Below the pieces are notes generated by a model. That model saw only the letters and a program-made list of their open reading frames with translations, made no database searches and was not told the origin of the DNA. Source: Prevotella sp. (GTDB lineage: Bacteria > Bacteroidota > Bacteroidia > Bacteroidales > Bacteroidaceae). From it: 34,592 nucleotides of DNA. Location of the stretch: positions 1-34,592 of the forward strand of contig JAFYJN010000102.1 in assembly GCA_017538105.1 (NCBI GenBank), given 5' to 3'. Positions within the stretch are counted from its first letter, which is position 1. Each line of letters starts with the position of its first letter. The translations under genes were made by a program, and so were the position numbers. Below, in pieces: positions 1,846 through 20,470 of the stretch.

Positions 1846-3066
1846 TTACTTTTTCCCAACTAAGTCTATAAGCTGTTGCACAAAGGGCTTCATGCGCCCT
1901 TGACGGTCGAAGAGCGTGGCGTAATCAGTTCGTCCCTTGATGGGGAAGTCGTTACGCCAAGAGTTGGCATCGTTCAGACACCAAAAGTTCACGCGGATGA
2001 TGTCTTTGTGATGCCGCAGCAGCATTTTGTAGAAATCAACCCAGAACCGACTGATTGTAGCCTCGTGCGCCTTGGTGAGTCCGTCTTTATAGGGATCCAT
2101 CTCCGGACGATAGGCGAACCTGTCACTTACGTTCGCCCCCGAAAAGCCATAAGGGTTCGGCAGCACGGAGAGGTCGAGCTCGGAAAAAAACGTGGGCACG
2201 CCCAGTGCGGCGATGGTCTCTATGGAATGGTCGTATTGCTTGATGACCTCATTGTCCACATTGTCCTCGAGAATCATGTGTCCCTGCATACCAATGGCCG
2301 TGACGGGCAGGCCCTGCTGTATGAGCGGGCGGAAGAAAGCCGCCACCCCCTCCACCTTCGTGGGTTTGTTCATCGAGAAATCGTTGTAATACAATTCCGC
2401 GTTGGGGTCGGCCTCATGGGCATAACGGAACGCCAGGGGGATATAGTCTGTGCCGAGAATCTGGTAGAACAGACTCTTGCGCGGCGAACCGTCATCTTCA
2501 AATCCTTCGTTCACCACATCCCAGGCATCCACGCGCCCCTTGAAATGGCTCACGATGGTGAAGATATGCTCGCGCATACGTTTCTTCAGCACCTCCGCCG
2601 ACACGAGTTTGCCGTCTTTGTCGAAGTGGAACCATGGGGCACACTGTGAGTGCCAGATGAGGCAGTGTCCGAGCACCTTCATCCCGGCGGCCTTCGCCTT
2701 GTCAACGAACTGGTCGGCCAGGGTGAAGTCATAGACACCCTCCTTGGGGTGGATAACCTCGCATTTCATGCAGTTCTCGGCCACCACGAAATTGAAGTTA
2801 TCCACTATCAGAGGCCAGTCGGCCGTCTGGTCGTTGCTCACCTGCCCCGTCACATCGTGCTCGTTGGCACCCGACGGGTCTGCGGCCACCTGCCACTGGT
2901 TCACGCTCACGCCGGTGTACCAATAGTCGCGGTAAGCTTCACACAGCGACTGGGCTTTCGTTTGGGCCACTGATGCAGCTGCAATAGCAATGATTGTCAA
3001 AGACAATGTCATTCTTCGGACACTGATCTTACAGATTGGACTGATTATACTGATTTCTTTAGCCAT
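1846..3066 (-). CDS. GH10 endo-1,4-beta-xylanase, secreted
   Basis: A GH10 TIM-barrel xylanase of about 406 residues. The acid/base Glu is in WDVVNEG (about residue 187) and the nucleophile Glu in FFSELDLS (about 296). Other GH10 marks are GHCLIWHSQ and the late WCLNDANSW. It cleaves internal xylan bonds. A hydrophobic stretch (LTIIAIAAASVAQTKA) marks it as exported. The start is uncertain. ATG 3066 has an A-rich context and gives a basic region before the hydrophobic core. ATG 3012 gives a shorter signal without basic residues, but would leave the upstream repeat (3018-3056) wholly untranslated. With the 3066 start, part of the signal peptide is translated from that repeat. It lies between the GxxExxY gene and GH43 in the xylan operon. 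Confidence 0.9.
   Translation of the reverse strand: MAKEISIISPICKISVRRMTLSLTIIAIAAASVAQTKAQSLCEAYRDYWYTGVSVNQWQVAADPSGANEHDVTGQVSNDQTADWPLIVDNFNFVVAENCMKCEVIHPKEGVYDFTLADQFVDKAKAAGMKVLGHCLIWHSQCAPWFHFDKDGKLVSAEVLKKRMREHIFTIVSHFKGRVDAWDVVNEGFEDDGSPRKSLFYQILGTDYIPLAFRYAHEADPNAELYYNDFSMNKPTKVEGVAAFFRPLIQQGLPVTAIGMQGHMILEDNVDNEVIKQYDHSIETIAALGVPTFFSELDLSVLPNPYGFSGANVSDRFAYRPEMDPYKDGLTKAHEATISRFWVDFYKMLLRHHKDIIRVNFWCLNDANSWRNDFPIKGRTDYATLFDRQGRMKPFVQQLIDLVGKK
3018..3056 (+). repeat. Left inverted repeat of the GxxExxY cassette
   Basis: A 39-base tract made of ACTGAT/AGATT units with a period of about 9-10. It matches the reverse complement of 3520-3558 at 32 of 39 positions. It ends 5 bases from the GH10 internal ATG at 3012. 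Confidence 0.75.
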
Positions 3067-3082
3067 GTGGTTGAGTAATAAT

Positions 3083-3484
3083 CTAAAGTGGATTAATATG
3101 GGTCTTCTTGCGGTCATTGGTAAATACAATGCGTCGTTTCTGGGGGGTTGGCCCGAAATTGAGAAGCAGACCCACTTCTGCATCTGTAGCACGTAAATAA
3201 TTCGTCAATTGAGCCTCATGCTCAGGCAGAATATGTTTGACAGCTTTCAACTCGATGATGATTTTGTTTTCAATGATGAGATCTGCAAAATAGTCACCCA
3301 CCAATTCGCCTTTATAGTAAACAGGGATACTTCGTTCAGTGCTGCAATCAAAGCCACGCTGTCTGAGCTCCTTGTACATGGCATTTTTATATACACGCTC
3401 TAGAAATCCATAACCTAACTCATTGTATACGTCATAAAACGCATTCAATATTTCGGCGGTTATTTCAGAGTGTAGATAATCCAT
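3083..3484 (-). CDS. GxxExxY protein (PD-(D/E)XK nuclease-like), 133 aa
   Basis: The defining motif GFLERVY is at residues 26-32. A nuclease-like core follows: GDYFADLI (Asp64/Asp68) and IELK (Glu78, Lys80), the pattern of a PD-(D/E)XK active site. Length is typical for the family (about 120-135). The family is widespread in Bacteroidota, and its biological role is not established as far as I know. It has no link to sugar metabolism, yet it sits in the same direction between the symporter and GH10 genes of the xylan operon. It is enclosed by 39-base inverted repeats at 3018-3056 and 3520-3558, so it looks like an inserted cassette rather than an operon member by function. It lacks a signal peptide. 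Confidence 0.85.
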   Translation of the reverse strand: MDYLHSEITAEILNAFYDVYNELGYGFLERVYKNAMYKELRQRGFDCSTERSIPVYYKGELVGDYFADLIIENKIIIELKAVKHILPEHEAQLTNYLRATDAEVGLLLNFGPTPQKRRIVFTNDRKKTHINPL

Positions 3485-3519
3485 CGTTTGAGTTTTGCTG
3501 TTTATCTGATTATTGAATT

Positions 3520-3558
3520 AAATCAGTTTCATCAGTCTAATCTGTCCAATCAGTGTCT
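3520..3558 (+). repeat. Right inverted repeat of the GxxExxY cassette
   Basis: Units such as ATCAGTCTA, ATCTGTCCA and ATCAGTGTC repeat with a period of about 9. It is the inverted partner of 3018-3056 and ends 6 bases beyond the symporter stop codon (3565-3567). Confidence 0.75.
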
Positions 3559-3564
3559 AAAAAT

Positions 3565-4974
3565 TCATTCCTTTTTGGCTGATCTTTCCTCTATCTCGCG
3601 GTTGATTGCGTCAATCTTCTCGTCGGTGAGTTCATACTTCGAGATGATGAAAATGGCGAGCAAAAGCAGGATGGCCGGGATGACGCAGACGAGCCACAGG
3701 ATACCCTCTTCGGCCAATGGCGTTTGGTCAATCACTTCGCTGTTATATCCTACATAAGCCAACACAGCAGGACCGACGATGCTTCCGAAGGTCATACCGG
3801 CCTTGAAGAACAGTCCCGTCAAGGCATTCACAATACCGGAAATACGACGGCCTGTAGTGTATTCACCATAAGAAATCACCTCAGGAACCAATGCCCACAT
3901 ATAACCAGTGGCCACAATCACGCCCGTACTCTTGATAAACTGAGCCACATAAATCATCCACATACTTGGATTTTCCATCTTTGAGATGACATAGAGCATC
4001 GCCATACCGAGAATTGCGGCGCCAAGGAACAAATAGAACATGTTCTTCTTTCCGACCATGCGCTTGAACCAAGGAACGAGAGGCATAAATATAAATGCTG
4101 GAATCGATCCCAAAGCCATAAAGATAGACAGTTCCTGAGCCGAACCGTGCAGATTGCTGTTCATGAAATAGGCACCAGCAGCATTACCGACCGACATCAT
4201 CGCAAAAGCAGTAATGAAGAAGAACGCGAGAACTCGCAAAGGACGGTTGCGCAGGAATTCCATCCAAAGGTCACTCACTTTCACCGTTTCAGTGGCTTTT
4301 GCATCCATGACGACGCGCTCCTTACACTGTGAGAAGCAGAACATAAGCAGACAGAAACCAACAATGGCATAAATTGTCATCGTAGTGAACCATGCCGAAG
4401 AGTCTTTAGGAAGACTGTCTGACGGTGCGCCTGCAAGCAGAGCGATGAACAGAGGAAGACCTGAGTTGACGGCCAGACCACCGAGGTTGGCCATGAACAT
4501 ACGCACTGATGTGAGGATGGTGATTTCGTTTGTGTCACGCGTAAGTGACGAGTTCAACGCTCCGTACGGCACATTGATAAAAGTATAGAGCAGTTGCATC
4601 GATATATAGGTGACGTATGCATATATCAGCGACGGAGCAAAACCGTTGAAGAAGCACAATATGGCGAATCCCGACAGGGGGATACCTACATAGAGTAGAT
4701 ATGAGCGGTATTTACCGTAACGCGGATTGCTCTTGTCAATTAATGCACCCACGATAGGGTCCCAAATCACGTTTGCCACATTACCCACCAAGAACATGAC
4801 AGCCACCGCCGATGGTGTAAGTCCATAAATGTCTGTGTAAAAGAACAGAAGGTAAGTGCAAATAACCTGAAAGATCAGGTTCTGCGCCAGGTCGCCAGAG
4901 CCGAATCCGATGCGCTGCAACCAGGAGAGTTTGTAGAATCCTTTCGATTCCTGAGCTTGTGAATTTGTTTGCAT
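3565..4974 (-). CDS. GPH-family glycoside:cation symporter (MFS fold)
   Basis: A 469-residue membrane protein with about 12 hydrophobic segments. N-terminal GSGDLAQNLIFQ and DPIVGALIDKSNPRYGKYR are hallmarks of the glycoside-pentoside-hexuronide transporters, which bring sugars or oligosaccharides into the cell with Na+ or H+. GEYTTGRR late in the protein is also typical of the family. In this locus it most likely imports xylose or short xylo-oligosaccharides made by GH10, for GH43 to split in the cytoplasm. It resembles the position of xynD in P. bryantii. Cassettes with repeats lie on both sides: the four-helix gene upstream and the GxxExxY gene downstream. Confidence 0.9.
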   Translation of the reverse strand: MQTNSQAQESKGFYKLSWLQRIGFGSGDLAQNLIFQVICTYLLFFYTDIYGLTPSAVAVMFLVGNVANVIWDPIVGALIDKSNPRYGKYRSYLLYVGIPLSGFAILCFFNGFAPSLIYAYVTYISMQLLYTFINVPYGALNSSLTRDTNEITILTSVRMFMANLGGLAVNSGLPLFIALLAGAPSDSLPKDSSAWFTTMTIYAIVGFCLLMFCFSQCKERVVMDAKATETVKVSDLWMEFLRNRPLRVLAFFFITAFAMMSVGNAAGAYFMNSNLHGSAQELSIFMALGSIPAFIFMPLVPWFKRMVGKKNMFYLFLGAAILGMAMLYVISKMENPSMWMIYVAQFIKSTGVIVATGYMWALVPEVISYGEYTTGRRISGIVNALTGLFFKAGMTFGSIVGPAVLAYVGYNSEVIDQTPLAEEGILWLVCVIPAILLLLAIFIISKYELTDEKIDAINREIEERSAKKE

Positions 4975-5017
4975 AATGATATAATTTATTATGAGTTATT
5001 GGCATAATGTGCATATT

Positions 5018-5080
5018 GGCCTTATTAGCGCTAATAAGGCTTATTGGGCTTATTAGGTTTATTGGGCTTATTGGAACAAT
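5018..5080. repeat. Left repeat tract of the four-helix-bundle cassette
   Basis: Degenerate tandem units CTTATTGGG / CTTATTAGG / TTTATTGGG, period 9. The leftmost 22 bases (5019-5040) form a perfect palindrome centred on AGCGCT. Read leftward, the units encode NKP, so the tract supplies the C-terminal tail of the overlapping gene. Confidence 0.8.
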
Positions 5081-5630
5081 TCGGGTATTGGCCTCTGGCT
5101 TGTAATCTGGCACGGGTCATTTGCTCGCGGATACCGCCATTGGCTAAGAAATCTTTTTTTACATATTCTAAATATTTATAGATCAGATAATCTGTTTGGT
5201 GAATCAAGGTTATAGCAATATTGGCTATAGTTTCAGGAGAACGCTGCTGGATGGCATCTCTATAGTATTGAGAGTCATTATGCCTTAAACTCGCTCTTCT
5301 TGTCTGTATTGCTTTCTCATGATTTAAATCCCATATTTCTAAACCACGATTTCGCAGATAGTCTTCATAATCTAACAATAATTCTTGCAGACTGGCTTTT
5401 GCCACATTCAATAGTTTTATCTCAGTCTCAGAAGATGTTGTTGAAGCAGCACATCCCTCAGCTATATTCTGCTTGCCAGAACGCGCTGCTTGAACCATCT
5501 GGTCGATGGTCCTGTCACCTTTCTCTAAGAATTGGTGAGCAAAGTAGAATGTAATATCATAAATACATTCTGCTTTTTGATAGCATGTCAAGTTTTTATA
5601 ATTTCCTTTTTGAGGGATAAACTCTGGCAT
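5031..5630 (-). CDS. Four-helix-bundle protein, 23S rRNA intervening-sequence-protein type, 199 aa
   Basis: Residues 11-100 (KNLTCYQKAECIYDITFYFAHQF..., ARSGKQNIAEGCA) have the helical pattern and the conserved basic and EG residues of the four-helix-bundle/IVP superfamily. The middle part (DYLRNRGLEIWDLNHEKAIQTRR) fits the longer four-helix-bundle 'suffix' variant. Relatives are encoded in 23S rRNA intervening sequences, and the bAvd proteins of diversity-generating retroelements share the fold. Free-standing copies have no established function. The last 15 or so residues are an NKP repeat translated from the flanking 9-base repeats. It lies in operon direction between the esterase and symporter genes and has no signal peptide or catalytic motif. 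Confidence 0.85.
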   Translation of the reverse strand: MPEFIPQKGNYKNLTCYQKAECIYDITFYFAHQFLEKGDRTIDQMVQAARSGKQNIAEGCAASTTSSETEIKLLNVAKASLQELLLDYEDYLRNRGLEIWDLNHEKAIQTRRASLRHNDSQYYRDAIQQRSPETIANIAITLIHQTDYLIYKYLEYVKKDFLANGGIREQMTRARLQARGQYPNCSNKPNKPNKPNKPY

Positions 5631-5663
5631 ATCTTTTTTTGGTGTTTATTGTTGCCTTTAGCA

Positions 5664-5731
5664 AATAGGCCTTATTGGGCTAATTAGGCTAATTAGAGTT
5701 ATTTGAGCTTATTGGGTCTAATTGGCTTATC
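5664..5731. repeat. Right repeat tract of the four-helix-bundle cassette
   Basis: Units CCTTATTGGG, CTAATTAGG, CTAATTAGA, GCTTATTGGG and TCTAATTGG follow one another with a period of about 9-10. The tract is closely related to 5018-5080. It contains the stop codon of the esterase gene (5689-5691), whose last dozen residues are read from it. Confidence 0.75.
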
Positions 5732-6966
5732 CTGCATATTTGTTTGAAAAACTCGGCGGCGGCCTCGCCCATCAGTTTGTAGCCGGCGGGGTTGAGGTGT
5801 AGCCAGTCTTCCTGCAGGTCGGCGCGGAGGGCGGCAGGATCCTGCGGGTCACGCACGGCGGCGTCAAAATCGATGCAACCATCGAAGTGGAGCTGTCCGT
5901 CAGTGGCCGTGGCGGCGGTATTGCGTATCCATTCGTTCACCCGCTGGCGTATGGCCTCACGTTTCTCGCTGTAATAGAAGGAGCCCTTTACAGGTGTGAT
6001 GGTGGCGCCATAAACTTTCAAGCCACGTTCATGTCCCTTGCGGATGAACTCTTGATAGGCGGCAATGAGTTGGTCGGCAATGTTGGGATTGTGCTCGCCA
6101 AAACTGCCGATGTCGTTGGTACCCTCGAAAATGATGATGTTACCAATGCCTGTCTGTCCGAGCACGTCACGGTCAAAACGTACCAGTCCCGGCTCGCTCA
6201 GACCGCCACGCACCACGCAGTTGCCGCCGATGCCGAGGTTAAGGACGCCGATGTGTGACGTGGAGGTGTTCTTCGACAGCGCTTCAGCGAAGAAGTCGGT
6301 CCAGCGATCCTGGGCATCGGTGGTGCTGCCTCGCCCATCGGTGATGCTGTTACCGAGGATGGCGATGGCCGTATTGCTGGCACCATACACATCTATCGAA
6401 GCGATGTTATACCAATGCACCGCTTCCTCACCCTGGCTGAAATCACTCTCGGGCGTACTTTCTCCAGTGATGATGTAGGAGGTGGTACGTGATCCACGAT
6501 GGCAGGATGCTTCCTCTGGGGTGCGGTCACCGTAGTTGATGGTGATGGCCAGTCGCTGCTGCGGGCGCAGGTGATAAGCCACCACATCGCTCACCATTTC
6601 CTCGCCACCCTGTAGCGTCAAGTTCCGGTTGCCGCCGAAGGTCAGGTAGGTGGCTGTAGCCACATTAATACGGCTCATATAGGTGGCATCGGCAATGTAT
6701 ACACTCTTGATGTCAACGGGTGTGTCGCTCTGCACGTTCGACAGACGCAGACGCATCGTCTCACCGCCAAGGCTCACATGCACTATCTGGCGCAACGAAC
6801 GGTTCGACAGCGACGACCGTGGCATATCGCCCTGACCGGGTTTCTCCACGGCAGTGGCCCATGTCCCCGTCCATTCCCTCTGCTGTTTCGGCGTAGACTG
6901 TTTCTGCGCACAAGCCATCATGGCCGAAGACAAGCACACACACAACAGAAATTTGAATCTATTCAT
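5689..6966 (-). CDS. Secreted SGNH/GDSL-family esterase (probable acetyl-xylan esterase)
   Basis: A 425-residue protein with an N-terminal export signal (FLLCVCLSSAMMACAQ; a Cys at 19 suggests a possible lipoprotein). An N-terminal beta domain is followed by an SGNH hydrolase domain. Block I is ILGNSITDG (nucleophile Ser207), block II GGN (247-249), block III GTND (282-285) and block V DWLH (Asp387, His390). Block I has Asn where GDS is usual. The likely task is removing acetyl groups from xylan. It is the first gene of the leftward operon, with a good promoter at 7035-7066. Its last residues (QLDPISSNNSN) come from the repeat tract at 5664-5731, so the original C-terminus was probably replaced. 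It is comparable to xynE in P. bryantii by position; substrate is inferred. Confidence 0.85.
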   Translation of the reverse strand: MNRFKFLLCVCLSSAMMACAQKQSTPKQQREWTGTWATAVEKPGQGDMPRSSLSNRSLRQIVHVSLGGETMRLRLSNVQSDTPVDIKSVYIADATYMSRINVATATYLTFGGNRNLTLQGGEEMVSDVVAYHLRPQQRLAITINYGDRTPEEASCHRGSRTTSYIITGESTPESDFSQGEEAVHWYNIASIDVYGASNTAIAILGNSITDGRGSTTDAQDRWTDFFAEALSKNTSTSHIGVLNLGIGGNCVVRGGLSEPGLVRFDRDVLGQTGIGNIIIFEGTNDIGSFGEHNPNIADQLIAAYQEFIRKGHERGLKVYGATITPVKGSFYYSEKREAIRQRVNEWIRNTAATATDGQLHFDGCIDFDAAVRDPQDPAALRADLQEDWLHLNPAGYKLMGEAAAEFFKQICRISQLDPISSNNSN

Positions 6967-18124: not shown

Positions 18125-20470
18125 ATGAACGTTATTACGAAAACAGTTTCACTGCCTGATGGAAGAACCATCAGCATTGAAACCGGCAAAGTGGCAAAGC
18201 AGACCGACGGCTCCGTTGTGCTCCGTATGGGCAACACCGTGCTTCTGGCCACTGTTTGTGCCGCGAAAGATGCAGTCCCCGGAACAGATTTCATGCCTTT
18301 GCAGGTGGATTACAGAGAACAGTACGCCGCTGCCGGACGGTTCCCGGGCGGATTCACCAAGCGCGAAGGAAAGCCCAGCGACAACGAGATTCTCACATCT
18401 CGCCTCGTCGACCGTGTGCTTCGTCCGCTCTTCCCCTCTAACTACCATGCCGAGGTATTTGTCAATGTGATGCTGCTCTCCGCCGACGGTGTCGACCAGC
18501 CTGACGCTTTGGCCGGCTTCGCCGCCTCCGCGGCATTGGCATGTTCCGACATCCCCTTCGAGTGCCCCATCTCCGAGGTACGCGTGGCACGCGTCAATGG
18601 CGAGTATGTGGTCGACCCGACCTTCGAGCAGATGAAAGAAGCCGACATCGACGTGATGGTGGGCGCTTCTGCCGATAACATCATGATGGTGGAAGGCGAG
18701 ATGAAAGAAGTGTCCGAACAAGACCTGCTCGGAGCCTTGAAGGTGGCCATGGACGCCATCAAACCCATGTGCGAACTCCAAACAGAACTGTCGAAGGAAC
18801 TCGGCAAGGATGTGAAGCGCGAATACGACCATGAGGTGAACGACGAGGAGTTGCGCGAACAGATGAACAAAGAGCTCTACCAGCCCGCCTACGACGTGAC
18901 GAAGCAGGCTCTGGAGAAGCATGAGCGCGCCGACGCTTTCGACAAGATCCTGGCCGATTTCAAGGAAGCGTATGCCGCCGCCCATGCCGACCTCGACGAA
19001 GATGGGCTGCAAGAGAAATACGATATGATGGACCGCTACTACCACGATGTGATGCGTGACGCCATGCGCCGCTGCATCCTCGACGAGGGCATCCGTCTCG
19101 ATGGCCGCAAGACCAACGAGATTCGTCCCATCTGGTGCGAGGTGAGCCCGCTGCCCATGCCTCACGGAAGCAGCATCTTCACCCGTGGCGAGACACAGTC
19201 GCTGACCACCGTCACCCTCGGCACCAAACTCGACGAGAAACTCATCGACGATGTGCTGGAGCGTTCTTACCAACGTTTCCTGCTCCACTATAACTTCCCG
19301 CCGTTCTGCACGGGCGAGGCCAAGGCACAGCGCAGCGTAGGTCGCCGCGAGATAGGCCACGGTCACCTGGCATGGCGCGGACTGAAGGGCCAGATTCCCG
19401 AAGACTTCCCCTACACCGTGCGTGTGGTGAGCCAGATTCTCGAGTCCAACGGCTCGTCGTCGATGGCCACCGTATGTGCCGGAACATTGGCACTCATGGA
19501 TGCCGGTGTGCCCCTGAAGAAACCCGTCAGTGGCATCGCCATGGGTCTGATCAAAAATCCTGGAGAAGACAAATATGCCGTACTCTCCGACATCCTCGGC
19601 GACGAGGACCACTTGGGCGACATGGACTTCAAGACCACGGGCACCAAGGACGGCCTCACAGCCACCCAGATGGATATCAAGTGCGACGGTCTGTCGTTCG
19701 ACATCCTCGAGAAAGCCCTCATGCAAGCCAAGGAAGGCCGTGAGCATATCCTCGGCTGCATCACCGACACCATCGCCGAGCCGCGTGCCGACCTCAAGCC
19801 GCATGTGCCTCGCATCGTGGCCTTCGAGATTCCGAAGGAGTTCATCGGTGCCGTCATTGGCCCAGGCGGAAAGATTATCCAGCAGATGCAGGAAGATACC
19901 GGCGCTACTATCACCATCGACGAAGAAGATGGCGTGGGCAAGGTACAGGTGAGCGCTCCCGACAAGGAGAGCATTGAGGCTGCCATGGCGAAGATCAAGG
20001 CCATCGTCGCCGTTCCCGAGGTGGGCGAGATCTACGAGGGTACCGTGCGCAGCATCATGCCTTACGGCTGTTTCGTCGAGATCCTGCCCGGCAAAGATGG
20101 TCTGCTCCATATCTCGGAGATTGACTGGAAACGCCTGGAGACCGTGGAGTCGGCTGGCATCAAGGAAGGCGACAAGATCACCGTCAAACTGCTCGAGATT
20201 GACCCGAAGACGGGCAAATACAAGCTCTCGCACCGTGTGCTCATCCCGAAACCCGAGGGCTATCAGGAACGTGAGCGTCGTCCGCGTCCCGAACGTGGCG
20301 AGCGTCGTCCACGTCCTGAGCGTGGTGGCAACGAGCGTGGCGAGCGCCGTGGCAACGAGCGTCGTGGTGGTGGCAACAACAGTCACCGCAACGACTATCA
20401 CGACCCACTGGCAGAGCATGAGCCGAAAGATTTCAACGACTCGCTCGACCACAACACCGACATCGACTGA
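18125..20470 (+). CDS. pnp: Polyribonucleotide nucleotidyltransferase (PNPase)
   Basis: A 781-residue 3'-5' phosphorolytic exoribonuclease and RNA-tailing enzyme. First RNase PH domain (1 to about 145) with [18 protein letters not shown]; helical linker (about 240-320); second RNase PH domain (about 330-550) with the metal-binding [15 protein letters not shown] beginning at Asp489; KH domain with IGPGGK (about 577-582); S1 domain with [31 protein letters not shown]-terminal tail of about 60 residues is rich in Arg, Gly and Glu ([11 protein letters not shown]...), then acidic. Length is larger than E. coli PNPase (711) because of the tail. It is flanked by its own promoter and terminator, a housekeeping gene between two carbohydrate regions. 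Confidence 0.97.
20276..20376 (+). repeat. Direct repeats encoding the RGG-like tail of PNPase
   Basis: Repeated CGTCGTCC(G/A)CGTCC and (G)AGCGTGGCGAGCGYCGT units encode RRPRPERGE and NERGERRG. The number of units may vary between strains by slippage. Confidence 0.65.

Follow-up and report, generated by a model that had tools for sequence, protein, structure and literature searches.

In the REPIN/RAYT system, the gene of a REP-associated tyrosine transposase is flanked by repeats that evolve together with the gene, and free-standing homing endonucleases are encoded by intergenic nuclease genes that occupy conserved gene junctions and occur sporadically in relatives. Here we report on two small genes, one of the GxxExxY family and one encoding a four-helix-bundle protein, which are each bounded by short-period repeat arrays in a xylan operon of Prevotella sp. 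(assembly GCA_017538105.1, contig JAFYJN010000102.1); the whole stretch analysed, 34,592 nucleotides (nt) long, is called the window below, and its own genome G000. Intervening sequences (IVSs) of 23S rRNA have complementary borders, are excised by RNase III and carry a gene of the S23p/IVP family (IVP below), according to the excerpted text of PMC4990558. Short tandemly repeated repetitive (STRR) heptamers of cyanobacteria are intergenic, including a position between hupS and hupL, and their function is given as not known (PMC2670836, in part), and the TAACTGA heptamer repeats of Beggiatoaceae are described without an associated gene in an article whose excerpted text makes no mention of S23, 23S rRNA, four-helix or intervening (PMC4679880). 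Among open PMC papers (subscription papers and curators' family notes being outside the scope), we found no published link between such an array and a protein family.

Comparison of sequences leads us to favour, with some reserve, the explanation that both genes come from one class of small mobile cassettes, which would move at the level of DNA, are bounded by arrays and encode a protein that would read its own array. By comparison, this is suggested by the presence and absence of genes at the same junctions, by similar arrays accompanying similar genes and by a repeat period and core that are linked to the protein family.

Cassettes of the IVP type resemble the 23S rRNA IVSs in their protein family, to which the window's four-helix gene is a distant relation, and in the combination of a gene with complementary ends, sporadic presence and insertion into transcribed DNA (PMC4990558, in part). 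The cassettes differ from IVSs in lying in an operon of protein genes (in the window the sites are between the esterase, symporter and GH10 genes, not in an rRNA gene), in having short-period arrays as ends, in a plan that is shared by the unrelated GxxExxY and DUF559 genes, in the mainly direct orientation of the window's four-helix arrays, and in that selection for RNA pairing left no trace in the arms examined. As with REPIN/RAYT, the repeat evolves with the gene, as judged from a family core and from the correlation of array with protein similarity over 52 GxxExxY loci (Mantel 0.26, with 0 of 2000 permutations as high), and one IVP unit is dispersed without the gene: TTGAGCG, the unit of IVP gene L248, has 186 matches in genome G028 versus 4 for the reversed pattern (overlaps counted singly). 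Unlike REPIN/RAYT, the cassettes are without a recognised tyrosine transposase of the Y1/HUH type (in profile searches the window's two small proteins matched other families only), their ends are 7- or 9-nt arrays, and the units of the window itself show no dispersal. With homing endonucleases, the cassettes share a nuclease gene located between genes, the use of conserved junctions and sporadic occurrence in relatives; the difference is that they include four-helix members without a nuclease match, plus arrays. The STRR and TAACTGA repeats are likewise intergenic 7-nt arrays, and IVP genes on Nostoc plasmids are bounded by heptamers; the published repeats are treated without an associated gene in the excerpted texts (PMC2670836; PMC4679880), yet STRRs and the arrays seen here may be the same thing. 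The BrickBuilt miniature inverted-repeat transposable element (MITE) of Porphyromonas gingivalis is likewise a tandem repeat that lies between genes of a Bacteroidota genome and has small inverted ends, but it has a 23-nt unit and is described as a miniature element (PMC4596501, in part).

Two array-bounded genes in a xylan operon

The first-pass annotation, made from the letters of the window, had placed two small genes in successive gaps of a xylan operon and in operon direction, and profile matches bear out both (Table 1). On the minus strand the order is esterase, four-helix gene, symporter, GxxExxY gene and GH10 xylanase, and both small genes are transcribed in the direction of the operon. 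The four-helix protein scores 32.1 against PF05635, just under the cut-off of 33.8, and it matched no nuclease family in profile searches. The PADLOC models of anti-phage defence gave no match for the four-helix protein and nothing strong for the GxxExxY protein (five weak nuclease-type matches, the best being Cas4 with E 0.00029). Among solved structures, the best match of the four-helix protein was 2gsc with an E of only 0.84, and there was no convincing match for GxxExxY; an alignment of IVP proteins matched 2rld (E 5e-53) and 2gsc (E 0.0017).

Degenerate repeats with a period of about 9-10 had also been claimed around both genes. Indeed, Tandem Repeats Finder reports period-9 arrays at 3022-3055, 3531-3554, 4996-5074 and 5674-5725. 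That the flanks are paired stands for one of the two cassettes: the GxxExxY arms, of four 9-nt units each, are inverted (score 58 versus 42 at the 99th percentile of cross-element arm pairs; the letters were checked), whereas direct orientation prevails in the four-helix arrays (68, as compared with 39 for inverted), a contrast that the first-pass annotation did not contain. The 3' array of the four-helix cassette encodes the C-terminal tail of the four-helix protein, NKPNKPNKPNKPY, as an in-frame NKP tail, and the final codons of the esterase are array sequence. With up to 3 mismatches allowed, the four-helix unit has 4 matches in the whole genome G000, all at 5031-5072 and 5671-5694 (reversed control, 2), and the GxxExxY unit has 2, both in its own arms (control, 0).

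The symporter was searched for in 150 genomes of the genus and 30 symporter loci were read. The closest symporter, in genome G019, is 99% identical, and G019 is the one of the 30 loci at which all three neighbours are closely similar; its esterase and GH10 xylanase agree with those of the window in 90% and 92% of amino acids, respectively. Here the search for related alleles lacking the cassettes, as the first-pass annotation had proposed, succeeds: the same esterase-symporter-GH10 operon contains neither small gene. The invariant presence of both genes in related strains, named there as the observation that would speak against cassettes, is thus not what is seen. At the 3' end of the G019 esterase, 28 bases of array-like sequence stand at the position of the four-helix cassette, and the gap matching the position of the GxxExxY cassette contains no array. 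The GH10 signal peptide (window 2950-3012) differs from that of the empty allele and the mature enzyme is similar. At the remaining 28 foreign symporter loci the neighbours are less similar and give little information on the gaps.

At the nucleotide level, the window and G019 (locus L062) are 95.1% identical in the symporter, 86.2% in the esterase and 86.9% in the GH10 gene. It is possible that this excess of the symporter over its flanking genes reflects a recombination with edges near the cassettes.

Table 1. Genes and repeat arrays of the xylan operon, in positions of the window
Feature	Position	Strand	Description
GxxExxY gene	3083..3484	-	133 amino acids, PD-(D/E)XK nuclease superfamily; TIGR04256 137 bits (cut-off 35), PF13366 140.9 bits
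GxxExxY cassette, arm upstream of the gene (operon sense)	3520..3557	-	GACACTGATTGGACAGATTAGACTGATGAAACTGATTT, four 9-nt units; pattern match 3531-3557
GxxExxY cassette, arm on the far side of the gene, inverted	3019..3056	+	GACACTGATCTTACAGATTGGACTGATTATACTGATTT; pattern match 3019-3045
Four-helix-bundle gene with suffix domain	5031..5630	-	199 amino acids; TIGR04258 76.7 bits (cut-off 40), TIGR02436 34.1 (cut-off 24)
Four-helix cassette, 3' array	4996..5074	-	9-nt unit AGCCCAATA in operon sense
Four-helix cassette, 5' array	5671..5731	-	orientation as 3' array; overlaps the esterase frame at its 3' end
GDSL esterase, upstream host gene	5689..6966	-	PF13472; compared with G019
GPH symporter, host gene flanked by both cassettes	3565..4974	-	TIGR00792 341 bits
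GH10 xylanase, downstream host gene	1846..3012	-	PF00331; start at 3012 inferred

Elsewhere in the window, positions 20273-20377 hold tandem repeats of 27 nt and 24 nt.

Arrays around the wider families

Among sixty relatives, the four-helix-suffix model had 40 matches, of which 30 loci and later another 5 were read, and GxxExxY had 95, of which 30 and later another 35 were read. After addition of loci from the korA-korB junction and removal of rows sharing their first 60 residues, there were 35 suffix-type and 82 GxxExxY rows, the latter including loci picked for their korA-korB position and two genes split over two rows. For IVP, the best 80 of at least 578 stretches encoding relatives were kept, 78 of them with enough flank. 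An array was defined as a self-match of at least 76% over 21 nt (85% in a stricter version), and control windows lay at least 450 bp away from the same genes. By this definition, a flanking array was present at 69/78 IVP, 22/35 suffix-type and 27/82 GxxExxY loci, compared with 6/294, 2/133 and 8/298 control windows; the stricter version left 47, 16 and 7 loci versus 4, 2 and 3 controls. The survey of flanks that the first-pass annotation had suggested therefore shows that arrays accompany other members of both families; many loci are array-flanked, with a unit that varies between loci (GxxExxY and suffix rows). IVP arrays stood on both sides at 48 of the 78 loci, and the best period in the 69 loci with an array was 7 nt in 57, 14 in 11 and 11 in 1. 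The period was 9 nt in 18 of the 22 suffix-type loci with an array, and in the 27 GxxExxY loci it was 9 nt in 16, 8 in 5 and another in 6.

Since period-scan windows of 36 nt were too strict for GxxExxY arms of three or four units (0.12 of the 82 on either side), shorter windows and a test of arm pairing were adopted, and it is this test that carries the GxxExxY family, because short arms make the period scan weak. The inverted match of the two arms exceeded the 99th percentile of cross-element pairs at 43 of 81 GxxExxY loci and the direct match at 21; the corresponding counts for the suffix type were 6 inverted and 9 direct (n = 35). Inverted IVP arms exceeded the 99th percentile of cross-paired arms at 29/78 loci and the 95th at 42/78, against a null that is raised because a core is common to all arms. 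By record title, the IVP loci with matched arms include representatives of Bacteroidota, Clostridia (L299), Verrucomicrobia (L295), Acidobacteria (L309) and Ignavibacteriae (L337).

When units were aligned by rotation, the GxxExxY arrays (25 left, 30 right) had the core A-C-N-R-A-T-T-N-N and the IVP arrays (58 left, 60 right, from 78 plus 8 plasmid loci) the core A-R-T-K-N-N-N, and both cores agree between left and reverse-complemented right arms. The information in the core was 7.3/6.2 bits (left/right) for GxxExxY and 4.3/4.5 bits for IVP, compared with 3.7/3.1 and 3.1/3.3 bits as the maxima of 8 column-shuffled nulls; the suffix-type core, C-Y-T-A, is weaker (6.6/5.2 bits versus null maxima of 5.5/4.7; 14 and 20 arrays), and all these figures are inflated by related loci, the statistics ignoring kinship. 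That the encoded protein reads the unit is suggested mainly by a core that is family-specific and equal in both arms. The correlation of array and protein similarity given above was obtained at an arm score of at least 38, and the 37 GxxExxY loci outside korA-korB gave a Mantel value of 0.16 (8/2000 permutations). Moreover, L204 and L060 (87% residue identity, arm similarity 0.79) as well as L207 and L208 (80%, 0.67) share arms and have no common neighbour at E 1e-10, so that the array seems to move together with the GxxExxY gene.

Of ten plasmid copies read, from Nostoc, Planktothrix and Treponema, most had heptamer-type arrays, the IVP genes of four genomes had arrays of their own at most loci printed, and IVP relatives occurred in 10 viral contigs, with heptamer arrays visible in several of the nine printed. 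Seven plasmid records contain a relative of the window's GxxExxY. The flanks of DUF559 genes, read by eye, were often GC-rich palindromes. On an Anabaena cylindrica plasmid (L370, 1471-1818) a four-helix gene lies between cas2 and cas1 on the opposite strand, and on a Planktothrix agardhii plasmid (L371, 1474-1833) one with heptamer arrays lies between drmD and a gene annotated as mmeI-like. In two strains of Flavobacterium columnare a four-helix gene is located 36 bp past the guanylate kinase gene and before the nicotinate-nucleotide adenylyltransferase gene, and a table in the excerpted source files it among phage elements (PMC5524665).

In 77 aligned GxxExxY relatives the PD-(D/E)XK residues are kept (D 100%, E 99%, K 100%), as are a Q and a Y (99-100%). 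Nonsynonymous divergence (dN) was 0.045-0.066 and synonymous divergence (dS) 0.53-1.59 in the four pairs with dS <2, the other pairs being saturated or nearly so. For orientation, the longest open frames were taken mechanically as the neighbours, with one count per junction, a procedure that errs (it scored 4 of 9 korA-korB rows as convergent or divergent though korA and korB are co-directional). Between co-directional genes, 32 GxxExxY genes were sense and 0 antisense, with 10 between convergent or divergent genes; for IVP there were 57 sense, 2 antisense and 9 convergent or divergent (10/78 dropped for short or missing neighbours), and for the suffix type 16, 4 and 11.

Reused junctions and arrays without genes

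At the threshold set, korB was found in 129 of the 150 genomes; 90 loci were fetched, 87 of them with a measurable korA-korB gap. These gaps comprised 48 of less than 40 bp (empty), 18 with a GxxExxY gene, 6 with IVP, 4 with DUF559 (2 of which also match the GxxExxY profile weakly) and 11 longer ones without a recognised gene, several of which are plain hairpins or cassette remains. All of the 28 genes in these gaps were in operon sense. On the korA tree (85 rows), the presence of GxxExxY implies 12 gains or losses, 9 of them forced by well-supported branches, with the bootstrap not settled. G000 itself has a DUF559 cassette at this junction, G019 a GxxExxY remnant and G167, adjacent on the tree, an intact GxxExxY gene. 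GxxExxY and korA identity agreed weakly over 16 loci (Mantel 0.27, 112/2000 permutations as high), by which simple co-descent is only weakly disfavoured. Two of the longer geneless gaps (L099, L131) share a common sequence around GCGTAGCGACTAAAAG, unlike the other arrays.

Junctions are also shared between protein families: the GxxExxY loci L054/L193 and the suffix-type locus L007 have both neighbours in common, and L039/L047 (GxxExxY) and L030 (suffix type) the downstream one. Together with korA-korB, these loci agree with the proposal that gene-gene junctions are targets, repeated use being what is seen. A Bacteroides finegoldii record (L373, 2989-3363) contains a GxxExxY gene with CACAGAGG-type arms, its neighbours being radA and the gene of a FAD-dependent protein.

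A replaced target is seen in cyanobacterial plasmids. Three Nostoc plasmids (L367-L369) have, inside a DNA cytosine methyltransferase gene, 473 bp that comprise an IVP cassette with AATTCGC heptamers; four others (three Nostoc, one Trichormus; L377-L380) have 335 bp at the cassette position and a whole methyltransferase gene. By this comparison, the Nostoc case is an insertion replacing the middle of the target and not a clean duplication.

Arrays also occur without these genes. In an unselected sample of 400 kb from two genomes, period-7 stretches numbered 24 and period-8 stretches 18, and shuffled sequence yielded none; among the 21 stretches printed with periods of 8-10, 15 were outside long open frames. 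The sample had 9 separate inverted pairs 150-1600 bp apart, compared with 1 match in a shuffle, and its GxxExxY gene L043, with weak arms, was missed by this search. Some of the TTGAGCG arrays of G028 are short inverted pairs, and in G000 the same heptamer has 14 matches versus 2 for the reversed pattern.

Explanations and their weight

The first-pass annotation had assigned both genes to one class of intervening element and had considered that paired flanks are folded and excised in the RNA. A shared architecture, an empty allele and reused junctions uphold the class; the RNA part is not supported. If RNA intervening sequences were at work, the inverted arms would pair in the transcript and the cassette would be excised by RNase III or by its own protein, as fits the S23p/IVP family being encoded in 23S IVSs with complementary borders and RNase III excision (PMC4990558, in part), the sense orientation of the genes and the inverted arms at many GxxExxY and IVP loci. 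Arms kept as an RNA stem should, however, have an excess of G-U mismatches on the sense strand. The GxxExxY arm pairs (n = 41) had 48 in sense versus 57 in antisense (44 versus 43 in the 30 best) and the IVP pairs (n = 50) 56 versus 53; since there is no such excess, nothing points to arms kept as an RNA stem, and the stem reading was ruled against. Moreover, A stood opposite A 98 times versus 35 for T opposite T in the GxxExxY arms, an excess with no counterpart in IVP (42 versus 33), and the window's four-helix arrays, being mainly direct, are poorly suited to an enclosing stem. We therefore regard RNA excision as improbable. Of similarly low probability is that these are ordinary host genes without mobility, whose proteins bind leader and trailer arrays to set their own level. 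Arrays near start codons, the low dN relative to dS and the proposal that heptamer repeats upstream of starts are translational control sites (PMC4679880, in part) would suit such auto-regulation, which is at odds with genes being present in some genomes and absent from others at the same junction, with a single junction being used by different protein families and with geneless arrays dispersed in the genome.

Homing deserves more of a hearing, although we consider it unlikely. GxxExxY and DUF559 proteins would then be free-standing endonucleases that cut the cassette-free junction and are copied by repair, the arrays being passengers or insulation. The conserved nuclease residues, the reuse of junctions across species with weakly congruent histories, the replacement of target sequence in Nostoc (an IVP case) and the sporadic occupation of one site (GxxExxY in 18/87 korA-korB gaps with 48 empty; the window's GxxExxY absent in G019) all agree with it. 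Four-helix proteins without a match to a nuclease family nevertheless have the same architecture, and a family-specific array core is not expected for homing genes. A mere coincidence of two hitch-hiking genes in repeat-prone gaps, with slippage repeats unrelated to the genes, is very improbable: arrays without a gene are frequent in the genomes sampled and ordinary genes lie within some of the inverted pairs, but arrays were rare in control windows, period and core track the protein family, and the window's units are present only at their own genes.

Under the favoured explanation of DNA-level cassettes, the encoded protein would recognise the core of the unit (A-C-N-R-A-T-T-N-N for GxxExxY, A-R-T-K-N-N-N for IVP), and the arrays would be the ends on which protein and host recombination move the cassette as DNA. 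Insertion could replace target sequence, and cassettes would persist chiefly at sites where their gene is expressed by read-through from the host operon and where they do little harm. The logic would resemble that of REPIN/RAYT, with a PD-(D/E)XK nuclease or a four-helix protein in the place of the tyrosine transposase.

Several observations weigh against this explanation. Cassette movement and binding of the array by the protein are conclusions from comparison, no excision, insertion or binding having been observed, and no target-site duplication was found. The array stub in the esterase-symporter gap of G019 (the 28 array-like bases) is as compatible with loss as with gain, and the site could reflect either a loss or an array of older date. 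Pattern searches of G000 revealed no dispersed copies of the window's own units. The period scan found no array at 13/35 suffix-type and 55/82 GxxExxY loci, and 38/81 GxxExxY loci failed the inverted arm test. Arm orientation is not uniform, being inverted in 45, direct in 16 and weak or unclear in 20 GxxExxY loci, and direct in 8, inverted in 1 and weak or unclear in 26 of the suffix type. The korA-korB GxxExxY genes are mostly mutual nearest relatives, and old descent followed by loss may account for some of what is seen at this junction. Of the 9 inverted pairs in the 400-kb sample, most surround ordinary genes or none and 0 surround the four families, as geneless arrays are common there; since several pairs enclose ordinary genes, inverted arrays alone are no mark of a cassette. 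None of 50,697 phage records contained a relative of the window's GxxExxY.

A wider proposal can be put forward more tentatively, and we would sooner doubt than assert it: a new cassette class present in several phyla, in which unrelated small proteins (nucleases of the PD-(D/E)XK type and four-helix proteins of two kinds) would each move or copy their unit by way of short-period arrays that they read themselves, with one period and core per family. The STRR heptamers, the TAACTGA repeats and the 23S rRNA IVSs would then belong to this class as special cases or degenerate versions.

The heptamer arrays (STRR, TAACTGA) have so far been orphans, and S23p/IVP and GxxExxY genes without a known role. 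If each protein family could be linked to an array of specific period and core, both would gain a partner that can be tested. This could explain the spread of IVP genes, perhaps also into 23S rRNA, and could extend the range of elements by one that lacks a recognised recombinase, enters operons and yet keeps their transcription. In Bacteroidota, Cyanobacteria, Clostridia and other groups, it could also account for many unusual gaps between genes, for repeat tails and for some of the broken genes.

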